From a bacterium (GTDB lineage: Bacteria > Patescibacteriota > Minisyncoccia > Phycocordibacterales > Phycocordibacteraceae): a stretch of DNA of 41,270 bases. The stretch spans positions 1-41,270 of the forward strand of contig JAHFMR010000006.1 of assembly GCA_023267755.1 (NCBI GenBank), read 5' to 3'. The notes below the pieces were generated by a model. It worked only from the letters and a program-made list of their open reading frames with translations, ran no database searches and had not been told where the DNA came from. A program made the position numbers and the translations under genes. Shown piece by piece: positions 4,860 to 32,844 of the stretch; within the stretch, counting starts at the first letter, position 1; the number at the start of each line of letters is the position of its first letter.

Positions 4860-5663
4860 TTAAGACCCACAAACAGCGCGCAGGTCGGCGAGGTCGGCTG
4901 TGGTGGGCGCTAAGTTACCGCTCTCGTTCTTGGCGAACATAATCGACTTGGGGTCGCTGTTGTGTCCGAGACCGATAGCGTGACCGAACTCGTGCGCGAG
5001 CACCCGTTCGAGCTGGAGGGTGCCAACAAACTCGAAGATGTTGATGCGTTCGCCCGAGACATCGCGAGAGTATTGTCCCTCCTCGAAGGTGCGCCCAGCA
5101 CTCTGGTTGAACTGTGCTACCACCGCGTTTAAGTCAGCAACGCCTTTGTTGAAGACGGCAACCTGATTATTGATGGTGTCCCCGAGCGCGTTCAGCGAGT
5201 CGCGCTCGGCGTTCAGTGTGGCTAGCTCGCTCGCTGTAGCGCCGCCGCGCGCGTTTACCGTCGCCACCTCCTGATTGTAGGTGGTCTGCCGCGCTGCGTA
5301 GTCAGCCTGGAGCGAGTCGAGTGTCGTGCGCGCGGCGTCGGCATTAGCCTGCTCTCGCGCTATCTCGGTGCCGAATTTAGCGTTCGCCTCGCGCGAGTCG
5401 TAGATGAGATTGACCTTCAATGCTGCGGTCGGATCATAGGTGAGGATCGTCTTTCCTGCTGCTTTGTTCCAGATCGCCACCGCAGTCTTGGTGTTGGTGA
5501 TGAGTTCAGTCTTCGTGATATCAAAGCGCGGATCCACCGTACCGATAGCATATGGGATTGGGTGCACACACGAACGCGTCTGCTGGTAGAAGTAATATGC
5601 TCCGCCTCCCACCGTGAGCGCGATAGTTACGACGATAAGCCAACGCAGTGCCTTTCCTATCAT
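4860..5663 (-). CDS. Membrane-anchored metzincin (M10/matrixin-like) zinc metalloprotease with coiled-coil insertion
   Basis: N-terminal TM helix; HEFGHAIGLGHNSDPKSIMF (HExxHxxGxxH plus Met-turn); start codon overlaps dnaX stop. Confidence 0.85.
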   Translation of the reverse strand: MIGKALRWLIVVTIALTVGGGAYYFYQQTRSCVHPIPYAIGTVDPRFDITKTELITNTKTAVAIWNKAAGKTILTYDPTAALKVNLIYDSREANAKFGTEIAREQANADAARTTLDSLQADYAARQTTYNQEVATVNARGGATASELATLNAERDSLNALGDTINNQVAVFNKGVADLNAVVAQFNQSAGRTFEEGQYSRDVSGERINIFEFVGTLQLERVLAHEFGHAIGLGHNSDPKSIMFAKNESGNLAPTTADLADLRAVCGS

Positions 5664-7278: not shown

Positions 7279-8237
7279 TAACTATTTATAAGTTGTTCCA
7301 GCTCGGCGGCGGTGTTCGCCTCCATCAGCTTGGCGCGCAGGTCGGCGGCGCCGGGATAGCCGGTGATAAATGCTTTGATGTGTTTCTTCAATATTGAAAA
7401 GTTCTTGGAGGGTCTAAGCTGTTCGAAGAGGCGAGCGAGCTCAGTAAGCGCCGCGAGCTTCTCGACAAGCGGTGTGTCCTCGCTCTTACGGCCAGCAAAG
7501 ACCCAGGGGTTCCCGAACATCCCGCGACCGATCATCACGCCGTCGCAATCGGTCTCTGCCGCGAGCCGCTTCCCTTCTTCGACACTTTGCACATCGCCAT
7601 TGCCGATAAGGAGCGTATCGGGAGCGAGCGCGTCTCGGAGTGCTACTGCCCGCTTCATACGCTCCCAGTCGGCAGGTACGAGCGAGAGCTCCTTGCGCGT
7701 GCGCAGGTGGAGCGTGAGCGTAGCCGGCTGTGCCAGAAGAATCGGCGTGAGCCATTCCTCAAGTGTCTCCTTGTGGTAGCCGATGCGCGTCTTCACCGAC
7801 ACTGGGAGCCCCGCGGTCTTAGCGACGGCGATAAGCTCCACTGCAAGCGCCGGCGTCTTGATGAGTGCGGCGCCTGCGCCCTGTCGCTCGATGGCTCTAT
7901 CGGGACAGCCCATATTAAGGTCAACGCCATCGAAGCCGAGTTCGGCGACAAGCTTCGCGGCGTACGCGACCATCTCGGGCTTGCTTGAGAATATTTGCGC
8001 GACGATCGGATGTTCTTGCTCACTGTAAACGAGGTCGCGCATCAGCGGATTTTCAGCATCCGGCATCTTGGCGATCTCGCGTGTATGATACAGCCCGTCA
8101 GCCGAGACGAACTCGGTCCAGAAAACGTCCGGCTTGCCACGCGTGGCGACGAGCGCGCGGAAGGCCGCGTCGGTGACGTCGGCCATCGGCGCCATCACGA
8201 AGAACGGCTTCGCCAAGCGATTCCAAAAAGATTCCAT
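7278..8237 (-). CDS. dus: tRNA-dihydrouridine synthase
   Basis: FFVMAPMADVTDAAFR, DGVDLNMGCPDRAIERQGAGAALI, VSVKTRIGY, LIGNGDVQSVEEG, DGVMIGRGMFGNPWVF. Confidence 0.93.
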   Translation of the reverse strand: MESFWNRLAKPFFVMAPMADVTDAAFRALVATRGKPDVFWTEFVSADGLYHTREIAKMPDAENPLMRDLVYSEQEHPIVAQIFSSKPEMVAYAAKLVAELGFDGVDLNMGCPDRAIERQGAGAALIKTPALAVELIAVAKTAGLPVSVKTRIGYHKETLEEWLTPILLAQPATLTLHLRTRKELSLVPADWERMKRAVALRDALAPDTLLIGNGDVQSVEEGKRLAAETDCDGVMIGRGMFGNPWVFAGRKSEDTPLVEKLAALTELARLFEQLRPSKNFSILKKHIKAFITGYPGAADLRAKLMEANTAAELEQLINS

Positions 8238-8259
8238 CGCTTTACCGTATCAGAAAGCG

Positions 8260-9111
8260 TTACGGTTTGCCTACCGCCTGCCTCTTTACGTAGACTCGCC
8301 CGTTAAAGCGCAGGTCAACATATTCAATCGAGCTATCAGCGAGATTGACACTCTTTTGCGCCGATACGAGCGCGGTGAAAGCGTCCTGCTCGTGGGCGAG
8401 CAAGTAGGTAATCCGCGTTCCACTCGCGAGGTAGTCATCCACCTCATCGCCTCTAATGGCAATGCCGGCAACTGACCCGCCGAGCGTCGCGAGCTGGCGC
8501 GCGAAATCAAATGTGGATGGCAGATCAAGCGCGTTTGGAAGTGTAGAGGTAAGAGGGTCGGCTACGTCACCGAGCGGCTCGTATACTGCAAAAGCGTTCA
8601 CTGGTTGGAGCGCACTCGTTGTGGCGAAGATGAATCCACTCGCGTCAAAGAGATAGCATGTCGACGAGGAAAATGTGCCCCTTGTGGTGAGCGGGGTCGA
8701 ACCACACCAGCGCGCGATAGGAACACGGTCACTTACCTTTATCGAGAGTCCAGTGAAGCCATTACGGAAGATGGAGACAGCCGCGATATCTGGGTGGAGC
8801 GCGATTATATCGGAACGGATGCGCGACGCTGGGAAAAAGAGTGTGGAGTCGCGTGGGATGAGCCCGAGATATTTCCCCTGCATCGCGAGTGTAGCGATGT
8901 CGGCATAGGATTGGTCTGCACCGTACATCTGCACGTGCGCGATGCGTAGCACGCTCTGATTCAGCTCGTAGATAATCCCTGCACAAAGTAGTAGTAAGAG
9001 GACGGCGAGGACAAACGGCATACGCCGACGTGTGCGACGACGACGCGCGGCGAGCGACTCGCGGCGCAGACTACTGTGCTTTTCCACCGAGGACAGTCTT
9101 ACCAACATACG
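8260..9111 (-). CDS. ftsQ: FtsQ/POTRA-like cell-division protein
   Basis: Basic N-terminus, single TM (MPFVLAVLLLLLCAGIIYEL), then POTRA-like IAHVQMYGADQSYADIATLAMQGKYLGLIPRDSTLFFPASRIRSDIIALHPDIAAVSIFRN. Start placed at an internal Met overlapping the serS 3' end. Confidence 0.65.
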   Translation of the reverse strand, partial: RMLVRLSSVEKHSSLRRESLAARRRRTRRRMPFVLAVLLLLLCAGIIYELNQSVLRIAHVQMYGADQSYADIATLAMQGKYLGLIPRDSTLFFPASRIRSDIIALHPDIAAVSIFRNGFTGLSIKVSDRVPIARWCGSTPLTTRGTFSSSTCYLFDASGFIFATTSALQPVNAFAVYEPLGDVADPLTSTLPNALDLPSTFDFARQLATLGGSVAGIAIRGDEVDDYLASGTRITYLLAHEQDAFTALVSAQKSVNLADSSIEYVDLRFNGRVYVKRQAVGKP

Positions 9112-10393
9112 GTACAAGCGCCTCGGGCACCTTAATCGTGCCGTCGGCTTGCTGATAGTTCTCAATAATCGCAATAAGAGTTCTGCCGATAGCAAAAGCG
9201 GTGGCATCATTCATGTGGACATGAGTCAATTCCCCTGCCTTATTTTTTATGCGCGTATTAAGACGACGTGCCTGATATCCTCCCATGTAATCGGAGGTTT
9301 GTGTTTCTCGATACGTATCTTGTCCCGGCATCCAGGTCTCAATGTCAAATTGGCGCTGGTCTGGCTTCCCCATGTCGCCTGTGCAAATCGCAACAACCTG
9401 ATACGGTAATCCGAGCGATTGCATAAGGTGTTCCTGTATAGCGACGAAAAATTCCTGTTCCTTATAACCATCTTCCGGTCGACTGAAGCTTTCGAGCTCA
9501 ATCTTATCGAATTGATGTTGTCGTAATATGCCACGTGTATCCTTACCGGCTGCCCCAGCCTCACGTCGAAAAGCTGTCGAATATCCCGCGTATCGGATCG
9601 GTAGACGTTCTTCTTCAATAATTTCATTCATATGCAGAGGACCAAGTGTATGCTCGGCGCTTCCGATGAGCACCAAGTCGTCTTTCTCGAAGAAATATCG
9701 TTCATCAATCGGATTGAGTCTGGCCATGCGCCCCATGATGTCACTACGCATAAATACTGGAGGAATAACTGGCACAAATGGTGTTAGTGATATATCTAGC
9801 CCGGCCTTTTGAGCAATTTTCGTAAGCTCGTCACGGGAAGTCAATATCTTGAGTGCGAACGAGATAAGCGCGAATTGCATCATTGCGAGATCGCCCTTGA
9901 TATACGCAAAGCGTGCACCAGAGACTTCGGCAGCACGCTCGGTATCTATGATTCCGAGATCTCTCCCAATATCCCAATGTGCTCTCGGTTTGAAATCGAA
10001 TTTCGTCGGCTCACCCCACTTGCGAATAACAATATTCCCCGATTCATCCGGACCGACAGGGGTGTCGGGAGATGGGATGTTCGGAACTGCGAGGAGCAAC
10101 TTTGTCCAATCTTTCAAGAGAGTTTGATAACGTTCTTCATTCTCGGTCATACCGTCCTTCAAATGCTTCATTGCTTCAAGAATTTTCTCGCGTTCTTGGC
10201 CGGTCGCACGTACAATCTCGTTGCTTCGGCGATTCTGTTCTGCCTTCTTGGCGTCGAGCTCTTGGCGGATAAGTTTGCGTTCATCATCAAGCTTCAGAAG
10301 CAAGTCTATATCGACCTCAACATTTTTCTTGGCCACAGCATCCTTTACGATGTCCGCGTTCTCTCTGATAAATTTAATGTCGAGCATGTGCAC
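9071..10393 (-). CDS. serS: Seryl-tRNA synthetase
   Basis: MLDIKFIRENADIVKDAVAKKNVEVDIDLLLKLD; class II motifs FRREAGAAGKDTRGILRQHQFDKIELESF; GRTLIAIIENYQQADGTIKVPEALVPYVG; GTG start. Confidence 0.97.
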   Translation of the reverse strand: MHMLDIKFIRENADIVKDAVAKKNVEVDIDLLLKLDDERKLIRQELDAKKAEQNRRSNEIVRATGQEREKILEAMKHLKDGMTENEERYQTLLKDWTKLLLAVPNIPSPDTPVGPDESGNIVIRKWGEPTKFDFKPRAHWDIGRDLGIIDTERAAEVSGARFAYIKGDLAMMQFALISFALKILTSRDELTKIAQKAGLDISLTPFVPVIPPVFMRSDIMGRMARLNPIDERYFFEKDDLVLIGSAEHTLGPLHMNEIIEEERLPIRYAGYSTAFRREAGAAGKDTRGILRQHQFDKIELESFSRPEDGYKEQEFFVAIQEHLMQSLGLPYQVVAICTGDMGKPDQRQFDIETWMPGQDTYRETQTSDYMGGYQARRLNTRIKNKAGELTHVHMNDATAFAIGRTLIAIIENYQQADGTIKVPEALVPYVGKTVLGGKAQ

Positions 10394-18017: not shown

Positions 18018-18890
18018 ATGTTGAAAATCTTGTGCATCGCAGGGCCGACCGCCTCAGGCAAGTCAAGTCGAGCTGTCGAAGAAGCGCTCGCGCGTGATGG
18101 TGAGGTTATTTCTATCGACTCACGTCAGGTCTATCGCGGGCTCGATATCGGGACCGAGAAGATATCGGCTACCGAAATGCGCGGCGTGCCGCACCATCTA
18201 ATAGATATCCGCAATCCCGAGGAGAATTATTCTGCCGGCGACTTTGTCACCGATGCAATACGCTTGATTGAAGAAATCACAGCGCGTGGGAACCTGCCGA
18301 TACTTGTCGGCGGGACGCACTTCTACTTCGATGCGCTTCTTAACGGCCTCCCAATCGGTGTCGACGCCAATCCGCAGCTGCGTGAAGAGCTCGAGCAGCT
18401 CTCGACCGAGGAGCTGTATGCGCGCGTCCGCCAAGCGGACGCGCGCCGTGCCGCAGAGCTGGACCCGCAGAACCGTCGCCGACTTATCCGCGCGCTCGAG
18501 ATTATCGCCTCCCTTGGGCACGTTCCACTCCGACACGAGGGGCACCCTCGTGCTGCACGAGGGTGCCCCTCGTGGGAGGTCGAGTGGATAGTGATTGACC
18601 CGTCGCGTGAAGAGCTGCGAGAGAGAATTAACACACGTCTCGCCACCGCCTTTAAGCGTGACCTCATCGAGGAGGTGCGCCAGGTGCGTACCCGTGTCGG
18701 CGATACGCGCCTTAACGAGCTTGGGCTCGAATATAGAATAGTCGGCGAGTACGTGTCCTCCTCCGCTGAAGCTACGGAGGACACGGCGCGTATCCAAGAA
18801 AAATTATTGCCGGTTCTATCGGCGAAGCTTTGGCAGTATGCCCGCCGCCAGAAAGCCTGGCTCCGCAAGCTTGGCCACTCGGCGTCCTAA
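18018..18890 (+). CDS. miaA: tRNA dimethylallyltransferase
   Basis: IAGPTASGKSSRAVEEAL, VISIDSRQVYRGLDIGTEK, GVPHHLIDIRNPEENYSAGDF, LPILVGGTHFYFDALLNGLP. Confidence 0.96.
   Translation: MLKILCIAGPTASGKSSRAVEEALARDGEVISIDSRQVYRGLDIGTEKISATEMRGVPHHLIDIRNPEENYSAGDFVTDAIRLIEEITARGNLPILVGGTHFYFDALLNGLPIGVDANPQLREELEQLSTEELYARVRQADARRAAELDPQNRRRLIRALEIIASLGHVPLRHEGHPRAARGCPSWEVEWIVIDPSREELRERINTRLATAFKRDLIEEVRQVRTRVGDTRLNELGLEYRIVGEYVSSSAEATEDTARIQEKLLPVLSAKLWQYARRQKAWLRKLGHSAS
18420..18446. repeat. In-frame palindrome 1 in miaA, 12-bp perfect arms
   Basis: gcgcgcgtccgc-caa-gcggacgcgcgc. Confidence 0.85.
18534..18574. repeat. In-frame palindromic element 2 in miaA, 20-bp perfect arms, 1-nt centre
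   Basis: cacgaggggcaccctcgtgc-t-gcacgagggtgcccctcgtg; each arm holds a mini-hairpin CACGAGG-GGCAC-CCTCGTG. Confidence 0.95.
18752..18785. repeat. In-frame palindrome 3 in miaA, 10-bp perfect outer arms
   Basis: cgtgtcctcc-tccgctgaagctac-ggaggacacg, encoding SSSAEATEDT. Confidence 0.85.
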
Positions 18891-19849
18891 TTACAGGTAC
18901 AAGAGTCTTTAAGGGTGTAGTGAACAGGATCTCCCGGGCCATACCAAGTCAAACACGAAGCTGTTGCTTTCGCTTGCGCATCTGAAGAAGATTGGTCGAA
19001 CCCAGTAACATCTATCGCCTTCCCTGCTGTGTGATTTGAATTCGTTGCTACTGGCCTACTGCAACTCAAAGCATGTCTTGTTAACTCTGCGGAGACACTG
19101 TTCTTGAGAGCGCTGCACGCAGTACTCGTATTATATTGAAGACCTTGCGTGCACCACCGATCTCGTATCTCAAATAAATGTGTCTGATATGTCTGCGGTC
19201 TATATGCAGAAGTAACCGTACCGCCAATCCCAGGTTGGGTGATGAATTTTGTTGCACATGGTCGTAATCGAGGATCCGCGCCGGTCCACACCACTGTTTG
19301 TCCGTCTTCCATCTGGAGCGCAGCCGAATCCGTAAGCGGTGTGAGCGCCGGTACAGAGCAGGCCACCGTAACACCTGCAGGTACGACTGCACCCGACGTA
19401 TACGGTGCTCCCGTCTGCGGCAGACAGAAATTCTGCCCGCCCGAGGTGATGAGGCTCGACCAGGACCCTAGCGAGCCGTTATAAAGCACCACCATCATTG
19501 CGTCGACAATCATCCAACCCGCGAGCGCGATGACGATGCCGACGATGGTATTGGTAAGGACACTCTTCGCTTTATCTATCCCACCAGAGTTCACCGGATT
19601 CACCACGAAAAGGAAGCCAGCATACGCGACTGAGAGCGGTGCGACAAAGACGATACCGAGCGTAATAAGAAACTCAATGACGTTATTGAAGACCTGAATA
19701 AGCATCCCCCAGCCCGCTGGACATGAAGCATAATTCCCTTGTTGTGGAATGATAGGCCCGAAAAACGGTATCATCGCGTGTGCCACGACAGGGAGCAGAA
19801 GCGAGCCTGTCACCAGGAAGAGTGCGAGAAGAGGGGCGCGAGAACGCAT
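18887..19849 (-). CDS. VirB2/T4SS-pilin-like N-terminal membrane domain fused to an M15 (VanY/D-Ala-D-Ala carboxypeptidase-like) domain
   Basis: Signal peptide plus two TM segments resembling the 30-33 kb cluster (FLITLGIVFVAPLSVAYAGFLFVV...KAKSVLTNTIVGIVIALAGWMIVDAMMVVL), then TSAYRPQTYQTHLFEIRDRWC...NSNHTAGKAIDVTGF, an M15-like S-x-H-x-x-G-x-A-x-D pattern. Confidence 0.7.
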   Translation of the reverse strand: MRSRAPLLALFLVTGSLLLPVVAHAMIPFFGPIIPQQGNYASCPAGWGMLIQVFNNVIEFLITLGIVFVAPLSVAYAGFLFVVNPVNSGGIDKAKSVLTNTIVGIVIALAGWMIVDAMMVVLYNGSLGSWSSLITSGGQNFCLPQTGAPYTSGAVVPAGVTVACSVPALTPLTDSAALQMEDGQTVVWTGADPRLRPCATKFITQPGIGGTVTSAYRPQTYQTHLFEIRDRWCTQGLQYNTSTACSALKNSVSAELTRHALSCSRPVATNSNHTAGKAIDVTGFDQSSSDAQAKATASCLTWYGPGDPVHYTLKDSCTCN

Positions 19850-20042: not shown

Positions 20043-20966
20043 ATGGAACCGCAGAAAAGTATTTTGTTCGTGTGCACGGGAAATATCTTCCGCAGCCTTG
20101 CCGCAGAACAGAGTTTCAAGCAATACCTCGCCGCCAACGCTATCGAGGGGTGGCGCGTCGCCTCTGCGGGTATCGTCGCTGCGCCACAGCCGACCGACCC
20201 AAAGACGCTTGAGACACTTCAGGAGCTCGGTATGGATGGCACCCGTCACGAGCAGCAACGTCTCACTCGCGAAATGCTTACCGAATACGACGTCATCGTC
20301 GGTATGGCAGAGAATCATATCGCGTATATGAAGTCCGAATTCGGCTACAACTACGCCTTTCTCTTCAACGAGCTCGCGACAGGAGAGAAGACGTCTATCT
20401 GGGATATTGAAGATGAGGTGTCGGACTACGCTCATAATCGGCAGGGTGTAGAGGAAAAGATTGCGCACACCGTGAGAAGTATCCACGACAAGATCCCCGC
20501 CTTGTTCGAATCGGCCTCTGAACGCTTCTACCTATTTAAGGATTTCATTGACGGAAAAGTTGCTCACCGGCACAACGGGTATCCTTTTATCACGCTAGAC
20601 GAGACGCCTCATTCTATCGCGTTTATGTCTATCGATATTCCGTTCAACGAAGATGGGCACGTCCTCGTAATCCCGAAGAAACGCTACTTCGACCTCTCCG
20701 AGATCCCCGATGAGATCCTGAGCAACATTCTCGCTTCCATCAAGAAGATAGGGCGCGCTCTAAACGTCGATCATGGCGGCTATAATATTCTCCTCAACAA
20801 CGGATTCGATGCCGGGCAATATATTATGCATACGCACTTTCATATCATCCCGAGACGGAGCGATGACGGTATAACAGTAGAAGGATGGGCGCATCCGAAA
20901 ATCAGTCTGGAGGATTTTGTCAGACTCAACGAGAAGCTTAAGCGACAGATAGAAGCAGTCTCTTAA
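20043..20966 (+). CDS. Fusion: low-molecular-weight protein tyrosine phosphatase-like domain + HIT-family hydrolase
   Basis: N-term ILFVCTGNIFRSLAAEQSF (CX5R P-loop); C-term HIT fold ending GQYIMHTHFHIIPR (HxHxH). Confidence 0.88.
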   Translation: MEPQKSILFVCTGNIFRSLAAEQSFKQYLAANAIEGWRVASAGIVAAPQPTDPKTLETLQELGMDGTRHEQQRLTREMLTEYDVIVGMAENHIAYMKSEFGYNYAFLFNELATGEKTSIWDIEDEVSDYAHNRQGVEEKIAHTVRSIHDKIPALFESASERFYLFKDFIDGKVAHRHNGYPFITLDETPHSIAFMSIDIPFNEDGHVLVIPKKRYFDLSEIPDEILSNILASIKKIGRALNVDHGGYNILLNNGFDAGQYIMHTHFHIIPRRSDDGITVEGWAHPKISLEDFVRLNEKLKRQIEAVS

Positions 20967-30125: not shown

Positions 30126-30386
30126 TTATCTTGTGATTGGAGTAACGCCAAAGGTGGAGAGAGCGAGGTTGATAATCCCGTACGCGCCGAAGATAATCAC
30201 TAGTCCAACGAGCCCCCAGAGGATAGCCTGCTTCCCTTCTGAGCGCTTCGCCTCGTCTCCTGCGTGCGCTATGAACTCGAACACTCCCCAAAGGAATACG
30301 ACGAAAGCGAGTGCCGCGAGAAGGAGAATAATCGGATTAACGATCTGTACGACGACCTTGTCGAGGAAGTTGTTAAGAGCAGGCAT
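30126..30386 (-). CDS. VirB2/T4SS-pilin-like two-TM protein, paralog 1
   Basis: AALAFVVFLWGVFEFIAHAGDEAKRSEGKQAILWGLVGLVIIFGAYGIINLALSTFG. Confidence 0.75.
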   Translation of the reverse strand: MPALNNFLDKVVVQIVNPIILLLAALAFVVFLWGVFEFIAHAGDEAKRSEGKQAILWGLVGLVIIFGAYGIINLALSTFGVTPITR

Positions 30387-30393
30387 TTATCCA

Positions 30394-30762
30394 CTAGCTT
30401 CCGATGTGCGTGCCCGTGCCTGGCACGGAGCTAGGACCAGTTGAATTGCCGAAAACGACAGTGCCGAGGAGGATGTTCACGAGACCCCAGATAGAGACCA
30501 TCACAAAGAAGCCGATAAGACCCCAGAGCATCAGGTTCTTACCTTTCTCCTTCACTTCCTCATTCTGGGCACCGATGATGAAGACCTCAAACGCGCCGTA
30601 GAGGAAGACGATAAAGGCGACCGCGAAGAGGACTGGGACGAGAACGTTATTGATAGTGGTGATAACGAAGGTTCCGACATCCGAGACATTGCTAATTGCA
30701 GCAAGAGAGACGAGCGGAGCGGCGAACGCGGCGGCAGTAACGAGGGCAATTACTTTTTTCAT
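30394..30762 (-). CDS. VirB2/T4SS-pilin-like two-TM protein, paralog 2
   Basis: Signal peptide; FIVFLYGAFEVFIIGAQNEEVKEKGKNLMLWGLIGFFVMVSIWGLVNILLGTV. Confidence 0.75.
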   Translation of the reverse strand: MKKVIALVTAAAFAAPLVSLAAISNVSDVGTFVITTINNVLVPVLFAVAFIVFLYGAFEVFIIGAQNEEVKEKGKNLMLWGLIGFFVMVSIWGLVNILLGTVVFGNSTGPSSVPGTGTHIGS

Positions 30763-30843: not shown

Positions 30844-31833
30844 TTATTGCCCGCACGTAGGATCGGTAGAACAACAACTATTGGAAAAATCCCATGATCC
30901 GTAGTCCGCTTCGCAAACACAGATTTCAGAAACGCCGGTGTTTTCCATACATGTTGTGTATGCGCTCGGCGTGACTCCGTTATTCGGCATACAACTCCCA
31001 GTATCATCACAGGTACCGGCCTGCCCACCAACCGTACAAGCAGTGTAGGCTGTACAACCACCGGTACCAACAGAAGCGGGGTCCTGACAAATATCACCAC
31101 CGTAGTTAGTATCGGGTGCACACTCGAGACCAGACGCACATGGTCGGGTGGCGCTGCAACTCCAACCCTGCTGAGCGACTGCGTCACTCCCTACGGGCGA
31201 CCCGGTCCCACCATATGCAGTGTATGCCGGGAGACATTCAATAGCTGTGTTGCCGCTATTAACACAAGAGTCGTAAGCTTGTTGCGCGAGGCCCTGACTG
31301 CTTCCGCCCAAACCATTTAACGCCGCGTTGTATGCATTCGTGGCAGTACCGCACGCAGCGCTCGACGCGCTGGCACCTGTACAAGCGGCCTGTTGTGCAG
31401 CGTATGCACTGTTCAACGCAGCTGTCTGTGCGGCAGTATAGCTCCCGCCAGTCACGTAGGAGCCCGCACCAATCGTCGGGAAGGCCGGCGCGGAGGTGCC
31501 AGCCGAGAGACCGAAGGTACCCATAACTAAGTTCACGATTCCCCAGAGCGAGAGAATGACGACAAAACCGATAACCCCCCAGATTGTGAATTGTCGGCCC
31601 TCGGTCCGATCCTTTTCATCAGCTGCACCGAGGATGAAGTACTTGTACACCCCGTAGAGAAAAACGAGGAACGCGATCGCCATCAGAAGCGGGACGAGGA
31701 GAGAGTTGATGACGTTGATAATACCGACAGAGTACGCCGAGATGGCAGAGGTGTTGATGCCCGTCTGTGCAGAAGCGAGGAACGGTGTGGCGAGGAGGGT
31801 GAGCGTCGTGACGAAGCGAAGAGTGTTTTTCAT
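30844..31833 (-). CDS. VirB2/T4SS-pilin-like protein fused to a long Cys-rich C-terminal region, paralog 3
   Basis: Start set at MKNTLRFVTTLTLLATPFLASAQTG (31833); FLVFLYGVYKYFILGAADEKDRTEGRQFTIWGVIGFVVILSLWGIVNLVMGTFGL, then a Cys-rich tail. Confidence 0.75.
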   Translation of the reverse strand: MKNTLRFVTTLTLLATPFLASAQTGINTSAISAYSVGIINVINSLLVPLLMAIAFLVFLYGVYKYFILGAADEKDRTEGRQFTIWGVIGFVVILSLWGIVNLVMGTFGLSAGTSAPAFPTIGAGSYVTGGSYTAAQTAALNSAYAAQQAACTGASASSAACGTATNAYNAALNGLGGSSQGLAQQAYDSCVNSGNTAIECLPAYTAYGGTGSPVGSDAVAQQGWSCSATRPCASGLECAPDTNYGGDICQDPASVGTGGCTAYTACTVGGQAGTCDDTGSCMPNNGVTPSAYTTCMENTGVSEICVCEADYGSWDFSNSCCSTDPTCGQ

Positions 31834-31844
31834 AAAACAGAATA

Positions 31845-32180
31845 CTACAGAGGGATTGAAGAGGGCGGCGTCGGTGCATAGAAGCCGCCGAGACCAAAGG
31901 TGCTTGCGACGACGTTCACGATGCCCCAGATGGAGATCATCACCACGAAGCCGATGATGCCCCACATAAGGAGCTTGTGCCCTTCTGCGACCTCGTCTGG
32001 CTCTCCGTGAGAGAAGATATAGGCCTTAGCGATACCATAGAGGAAGACGATAAAGGCAATCGCGAAGAGGACCGGTACCAGGACGTTATTAATAAGGTAG
32101 AGGAGGTTGGTCGCAATCTGGCAGATACCAGAAGCGCAACCAGAACCGAAGGAGAACGTGAGTGAACCGTTAATATTCAT
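31845..32180 (-). CDS. VirB2/T4SS-pilin-like two-TM protein, paralog 4
   Basis: FIVFLYGIAKAYIFSHGEPDEVAEGHKLLMWGIIGFVVMISIWGIVNVVASTFGLGG. Confidence 0.75.
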   Translation of the reverse strand: MNINGSLTFSFGSGCASGICQIATNLLYLINNVLVPVLFAIAFIVFLYGIAKAYIFSHGEPDEVAEGHKLLMWGIIGFVVMISIWGIVNVVASTFGLGGFYAPTPPSSIPL

Positions 32181-32469: not shown

Positions 32470-32844
32470 TCAGCCCCCGAGCGACTGTGCGGTCGCCTGT
32501 ATCGCGAGCGCTATCGCCTTGGCGCCGAGCAGGATGAGCGCGCCGACGACTGTCCAGAGGAGCATCGTGCGCGCCTCGCTTATCTTCGATTCATTCCCTT
32601 GCGCCGTGACGAACTTGTAGCCGACATACACCACCATTAAGACCACGACGATAGCCCCGATGCGGATGACAAAATCGAGAATGCCAAGAAGAAATGATTC
32701 AAGATTCCCTCCCCCTTGGAGCGGGTTGATGAGAGTAACGGCTGTATTGGTGTTGGTGTTTGTATCTGTTGCGTAGACAAACGCCATCGGCGCGAGAACG
32801 AATAAGGGGGTGAGAGCAAGAGCAGCAAGAGAGCGAAAGCGCAT
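32470..32844 (-). CDS. VirB2/T4SS-pilin-like protein, divergent paralog 6
   Basis: Signal peptide; FVIRIGAIVVVLMVVYVGYKFVTAQGNESKISEARTMLLWTVVGALILLGAKAIALAIQATAQSL. Confidence 0.75.
   Translation of the reverse strand: MRFRSLAALALTPLFVLAPMAFVYATDTNTNTNTAVTLINPLQGGGNLESFLLGILDFVIRIGAIVVVLMVVYVGYKFVTAQGNESKISEARTMLLWTVVGALILLGAKAIALAIQATAQSLGG

Follow-up and report, generated by a model that had tools for sequence, protein, structure and literature searches.

How does a patescibacterial T4SS cross the cell wall? A 2025 survey of 3,035 genomes (PMC12102498) found VirB2-like pilins in 1,948 assemblies with VirB4 and few homologues of VirB1, most VirB2-bearing Patescibacteria having none that is recognisable; its authors infer that the patescibacterial VirB2 pilus needs no VirB1, note that other enzymes might fill the VirB1 role, and cite in this regard peptidase and lysozyme genes of S. 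epibionticum that are essential and lie downstream of virB4. The question is raised anew by one gene in the 41,270-nucleotide stretch of patescibacterial DNA analysed here (the window), in which the initial annotation had recognised a pilin-like membrane domain fused to a peptidase-like domain. Our analysis places this gene in a family of pilin-anchored hydrolases that is a concrete candidate for the missing wall-opening component of the patescibacterial T4SS. The part of the literature covered by our search contained no description of pilin-hydrolase fusions, of the M15 fusion, of the pairing or of the locus.

The fusion gene and its locus

The fusion gene occupies positions 18887-19849, exactly as initially annotated, and we add that it lies on the minus strand; it starts with ATG and encodes a 320 aa protein with a T4SS-pilin-like (VirB2-like) membrane domain followed by an M15 peptidase domain. 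Read on the plus strand, the same interval contains stops throughout. The frame is intact in three congeneric genomes, with full-length identities of 56-59%, and the gene keeps a conserved chromosomal position, thus we consider it a real gene; a chance ORF or a pseudogene was ruled out since the frame is intact, syntenic and conserved. Its stop shares 4 bases with the end of the convergent miaA (18018-18890, plus strand), and the divergent gene upstream (20043-20966, plus strand) encodes a product with low-molecular-weight phosphatase and HIT domains. This phosphatase-HIT fusion is 307 aa long, and a similar neighbour was present in one other locus among the family loci clustered. Most genomes of the family have the fusion gene flanked by miaA and clpC; rel and a parB-like gene are found farther out.

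The source genome comprises 583 kb in 21 contigs and is 98.7% complete. A single-protein query against genome contigs found no relative, and a query with an alignment found 42 named loci; relatives carrying the fusion gene are recorded as Candidatus Kaiserbacteria, Paceibacterota, Parcubacteria or Nomurabacteria. Among the genomes of the same family, 97 of 105 were matched in a whole-protein search (N-domain, E<=0.001), a count obtained mostly via the N-domain and including plain pilins. Elsewhere in the window, 4860-5663 (minus strand) encodes a membrane-anchored protein that combines a coiled coil and a matrixin-like (M10) zinc protease domain.

The N-terminal domain is related to T4SS pilins

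The T4SS-pilin-like domain comprises residues 1-147 (19409..19849, minus strand, as are all features of the protein given below) and was delimited with a family profile. It begins with a predicted Sec signal region, residues 1-25 (19775..19849; MRSRAPLLALFLVTGSLLLPVVAHA), read from the sequence, in which P20 and A25 are conserved in alignment A5. In the AlphaFold2 model a signal-like helix (residues 4-22) precedes two long membrane helices, residues 47-83 (19601..19711) and 88-123 (19481..19588), so that the signal region and two long helices common to T4SS_pilin (PF18895) and TrbC/VirB2 pilins, including the patescibacterial VirB2 arrays, are all present. Lysines in, or just past, the short loop between the helices are consistent with the N-out/C-out topology of VirB2. 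The structural neighbours of the N-domain model were generic helical hairpins, uninformative on pilins.

The window protein alone gave no match to PF18895 at E<=10, and its N-domain is therefore tied to T4SS_pilin through the family, in which PF18895 is matched by 29 of 32 N-domains and TrbC/VirB2 by 9 of 32. The initial annotation had likened this half of the protein to pilin-like proteins at 30-33 kb, a resemblance borne out by the profile built from the 32 family N-domains, which matches the window at 32521-32832 (the best match, E=1.9e-11), 30147-30455, 31507-31830 and 31896-32129. The array, encoded on the minus strand, includes a VirB2/TrbC-like pilin of 124 aa (32470..32844), which matches the fused N-domain best within the window, two T4SS_pilin family proteins of 111 aa (31845..32180, E=4.6e-11) and 122 aa (30394..30762, E=1.7e-8), and a T4SS_pilin domain extended at its C-terminus by a Cys-rich segment (30844..31965, E=3e-9). 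It lies about 11-13 kb from the fusion gene; 8 genomes have gene and array on one contig, at a distance of ~11-15 kb. Moreover, the same profile matches a pilin-like gene ~2 kb from the VirB4 match on the VirB4-bearing contig (E=6e-7). By sequence comparison, the fused N-domain is thus a homologue of the T4SS pilins that the same genome encodes. The pilins themselves measure no more than ~85-125 aa here, whereas the fusion adds a catalytic extension of ~170 residues and a conserved PFFGPIIP segment, which the small pilins of the window do not have.

The C-terminal domain very likely belongs to the M15 peptidases

After a low-confidence linker, the peptidase domain spans about residues 176-320 (18890..19324), as delimited by Pfam VanY, structural matches and hhalign. 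It contains the TSAYRPQ segment (residues 213-219, 19193..19213), corresponding to the substrate-side arginine region of M15 enzymes, whose arginine is invariant in four close members; the SxHxxGxAxD zinc motif as SNHTAGKAID (residues 271-280, 19010..19039), with H273 and D280; and GDPVHY (residues 306-311, 18917..18934), with the candidate catalytic acid D307 and the third zinc ligand H310. An arginine motif, the SxHxxGxAxD motif and a second histidine with an acidic residue at -3 are also features of M15 peptidases such as VanY/VanX, LdcB, the phage endolysins Ply500 and LysECD7, and ChiX. The His, Asp and His expected of M15 zinc ligands are found, at residue level, in H273, D280 and H310; together with D307 they are invariant, as far as presence of the residue goes, in three close relatives, and in 12 M15-type members the equivalent positions H126, D133 and H163 of the domain do not vary. 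D307, at -3 from H310, is conserved in four close members, and M15 enzymes usually carry a Glu or Asp at this acidic position near the third ligand.

Pfam VanY matched the whole protein with E=5.8e-4 and the isolated domain with E=1.5e-4, at 22 bits where the cutoff is 25. L089 and L099, two relatives that share the locus and the anchor, scored E=2.8e-14 and 1.8e-13 (53.5 and 50.9 bits), and in each of them T4SS_pilin and VanY are both above the Pfam cutoff within one protein. An hhalign comparison between the window-type profile and the L089/L099 profile gave E=5.1e-5 with a probability of 67, covering the arginine and zinc motifs. The overall fold in the AlphaFold2 model also resembles that of M15 peptidases: the C-terminal matches listed for the full model are the M15 enzymes LysECD7, Ply500, ChiX and BaLdcB (8q2g, 2vo9, 5opz and 4mph, with Z of 6.7, 6.2, 5.8 and 5.0). 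Folded alone, from a shallow alignment, the domain reached a pLDDT of 74 in a poorer model than that of the full protein, and its matches included many M15/hedgehog entries with Z of 3-4.6, tied with unrelated ones. Foldseek returned nothing below E 0.001, and the C-domain-alone model had no clear match; phmmer of the window protein against PDB gave one chance match only, and a PDB profile search with M15-type domains reached hedgehog proteins, which have an M15-like fold, at E about 0.04, insufficient by itself. Compared with M15 peptidases, the window domain differs in scoring below the VanY cutoff, in an additional helix and cysteines in the stretch from the arginine motif to the zinc motif, and in being anchored by a pilin domain. 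Its conserved cysteines are consistent with an extracytoplasmic location. Altogether the M15/VanY-like reading of the initial annotation holds: we regard M15 identity as established for the fusion family, and the window protein is very likely a divergent M15 peptidase.

One anchor with different and often paired hydrolase domains

The window gene is one branch of a modular family whose members, frequently in pairs, occupy one syntenic locus in Ca. Kaiserbacteria relatives, where the anchor bears either an M15 peptidase domain or a lytic transglycosylase/lysozyme domain. We extracted 95 members and typed their C-domains by motif regex, followed by a check by eye and, for part of them, Pfam; 51 were lysozyme/transglycosylase (LT), 39 M15, 3 other or degenerate and 2 truncated. 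In 47 LT-type domains scanned, SLT was matched by 15 and SLT_3, the 'Lysozyme like domain' PF18896, by 23; the consecutive accessions PF18895 and PF18896 hint that Pfam curators met the pilin and lysozyme architecture together. The best LT-type scores were 7.5e-16 (SLT) and 2.5e-10 (SLT_3) and the best M15-type score was 7.6e-15 (VanY), with some M15-type members matching VanY, M15_4 and M15_3. A Glu is invariant in the LT group and an Asp in the M15 group, conservation that would fit active enzymes. No homology was seen between LT and M15 C-domains when tested. The M15 label of some subtypes is motif-based, because hhalign did not establish a relation between the window M15 type and the GGTE subtype.

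Where two members stand in tandem, the pair joined one LT and one M15 in 14 of 14 loci (P = 4e-4 for random pairing of the 28 genes with fixed totals, a value that ignores kinship and so overstates the evidence; the observations behind the pair and label counts are not independent of one another). Many genomes have a single family member only, and those of the window type carry the M15 member alone, with no transglycosylase partner of the fusion family. A tree of the N-domains requires no fewer than 24 switches of the LT/M15 label, a number that falls to 20 when weak branches are collapsed and to 7 at the strictest cut, compared with a mean of 29 after shuffling; the pattern is suggestive of repeated exchange, or of duplication and loss, although the N-domain is short.

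A ~190 aa single-TM protein is encoded directly downstream of 38 of the 51 LT members and of none of the 39 M15-type ones (p about 1e-13 by Fisher's test, kinship ignored). In its alignment (A7) it had no recognisable inhibitor or other family, and there is no copy beside the window gene. The protein is exported and has conserved cysteines (L098:7386-7955, L085:6366-6935, L044:4781-5374 and 37 more); it is possibly an inhibitor or partner of the LT-type fusion.

Some members depart from both types. At the same locus, L101:6026-7135 and L105:2246-3439 join the pilin domain to an unrecognised C-domain type (TWPELAxRYGLPxDTVFSA), which extends the range of exchangeable domains beyond the known hydrolases. 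In L192:1960-3699 the pilin domain is followed by two M15-like repeats seemingly without the zinc motif; the gene adjoins a member with an intact motif and, as read from its residues, could possibly encode an inactive partner. In L042:5446-8250 the open frame of the fusion extends upstream to take in a serine-recombinase-like sequence (a frame of 934 aa), probably an insertion just ahead of the fusion gene.

Beyond the family, a pilin-like match was present in 276 of 297 genomes sampled across the order. Pairs of LT and M15 were found in other families of the order (L201, L203, L204, L207 and L219, from long frames fetched and searched with local profiles and motifs), SLT being also confirmed by Pfam in L203. 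In other orders, L240 has SLT, and L238 and L236 match M15-subtype profiles. L241, from another order of the class, has a pilin domain and NlpC/P60 in one protein, and a pilin-like domain with a glucosaminidase in the next gene. Since the pattern recurs with LT and M15 elsewhere and with NlpC/P60 and glucosaminidase in L241, it is the combination that is conserved and not the enzymes: an anchor with a glycan cutter and a peptide cutter stays constant. The L241 protein itself (L241:1786-3063) joins glutaredoxin, T4SS_pilin and NlpC/P60.

T4SS genes and other wall hydrolases of the source genome

VirB4 is encoded near dnaA on contig C19, and the fusion gene lies on contig C15. Just upstream of VirB4 is a PrgI-like gene, and downstream, shortly before dnaA, are membrane and pilin-like genes; the PrgI-like gene and dnaA were named by eye from the sequence. 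The VirB4 region is read as two overlapping frames of 209 and 672 aa (L231:7144-7773 and 7574-9592), the longer of which holds the ATPase domain. No recognisable wall hydrolase was found in the frames of this locus, and a search of the source genome for SLT, NlpC/P60 or an LT-type fusion gave no match; one clear M23 peptidase gene is present elsewhere. The source organism has therefore the family's peptide cutter and lacks its glycan cutter, unless the latter is unassembled or unrecognised.

A possible role in opening the wall for the T4SS

The initial annotation had suggested that a pilin-like anchor carrying a wall-cleaving domain could help an envelope-spanning machine to pass peptidoglycan. 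This part of its proposal is the mechanism best supported, because the anchor is common to members with lytic transglycosylase, NlpC/P60 or glucosaminidase domains; the position of the gene outside the VirB4 locus speaks against it. We give about an even chance to a VirB1-like opening of the wall for the patescibacterial T4SS, with the VirB2-like domain as targeting anchor. Sec would export the fusion protein, the VirB2-like helix-loop-helix would hold it in the cytoplasmic membrane with the M15 domain outside, the pilin-like domain would bring about association with the T4SS or its pilins, and the M15 domain would cut peptide cross-links of the peptidoglycan where the T4SS assembles. The job of VirB1, or of a bifunctional enzyme of the TraG/PrgK type, would be divided over separate pilin-anchored enzymes, with M15 or NlpC/P60 as peptide cutters and lytic transglycosylase or glucosaminidase as glycan cutters. 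By carrying different, often paired cutters on a pilin anchor, the ultrasmall Kaiserbacteria may open up the wall that surrounds their secretion machine.

VirB1-type hydrolases (VirB1 of Agrobacterium, TraG of pIP501, PrgK of pCF10, Orf14 of Tn916) are likewise exported or membrane-associated and serve a T4SS. Gram-positive VirB1 proteins combine wall-cutting domains (PMC12857230), an SLT glycan cutter with a CHAP peptide cutter or a LytM-type domain, so that glycan and peptide cutting are paired there too (PMC12102498, PMC12857230). In the patescibacterial fusions, unlike these, each activity has its own VirB2-like anchor and the peptide cutter is M15. The window protein as VirB1 itself was rejected: it has an M15 domain and no SLT match, and its gene is not at the VirB4 locus.

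Counting against the VirB1-like role are the location of the fusion gene off the VirB4 operon, on another contig, the lack of a transglycosylase partner from the fusion family in window-type genomes, and the M23 peptidase elsewhere in the genome, which could do the same job; the window protein is also under the Pfam cutoffs for both domains. These enzymes might instead serve housekeeping remodelling of the wall, acting in growth, division or cross-link trimming on a generic anchor derived from a pilin, with no link to a T4SS. Ordinary wall maturation is also among the roles of M15 enzymes, and the neighbourhood (rel, parB-like, miaA, clpC) is a conserved housekeeping one away from VirB4; near-universality in the family, judged by N-domain matches that include pilins, and the single member of many genomes agree with this as well. 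A generic anchor, however, would not need to keep pilin-family sequence across very different cutters, and the architecture is seen again in other orders, so we regard housekeeping as rather unlikely.

Attack on a host wall, also raised in the initial annotation, would make the fused pilin a minor subunit of the T4SS pilus, borne along it or at its tip, with the exposed enzyme cutting the wall of the host. The two-helix arrangement of the pilin family is kept in the N-domain, cultivated Patescibacteria are epibionts, one of them, the only one studied genetically, with a pilin array and T4SS genes essential for epibiotic growth (PMC10633639), and it has been proposed that they use lytic transglycosylases against host envelopes (PMC11665869). 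An enzyme of ~170 residues on each subunit would nevertheless be hard to pack save at the tip, and PFFGPIIP, absent from the small pilins of the window, suggests a specialised role; such a weapon seems to us distinctly unlikely. Less probable still is delivery of LT members to neighbouring bacteria as effectors, with the downstream ~190 aa protein as the inhibitor. It would account for the tie of that gene to LT members, and T4SS effectors that kill on contact and have immunity genes beside them are known (PMC6759196, PMC8262851), but it would leave unexplained the M15 members, among them the window gene, which has no such neighbour, membrane anchoring is unusual for effectors, and the ~190 aa protein belongs to no recognisable inhibitor family.

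Returning to wall opening for the T4SS, its extension to Patescibacteria at large is more tentative, and we think it somewhat doubtful: VirB1 would be replaced by a modular 'VirB1-on-VirB2' set of paired glycan and peptide cutters, the transglycosylase being controlled by a dedicated exported partner. Some proteins counted as plain pilins by profile searches could be pilin-hydrolase fusions.

T4SS-pilin-like domains in giant frames

In more distant Patescibacteria, T4SS-pilin-like domains were observed inside giant frames of about 2,300 to 14,266 aa (G468:C1:501280, G626:C10:51724, G496:C15:116627, G604:C31:5954, G456:C1:86491 and G508:C1:73269), which often adjoin a frame of 650-760 aa that also has a T4SS-pilin-like domain.
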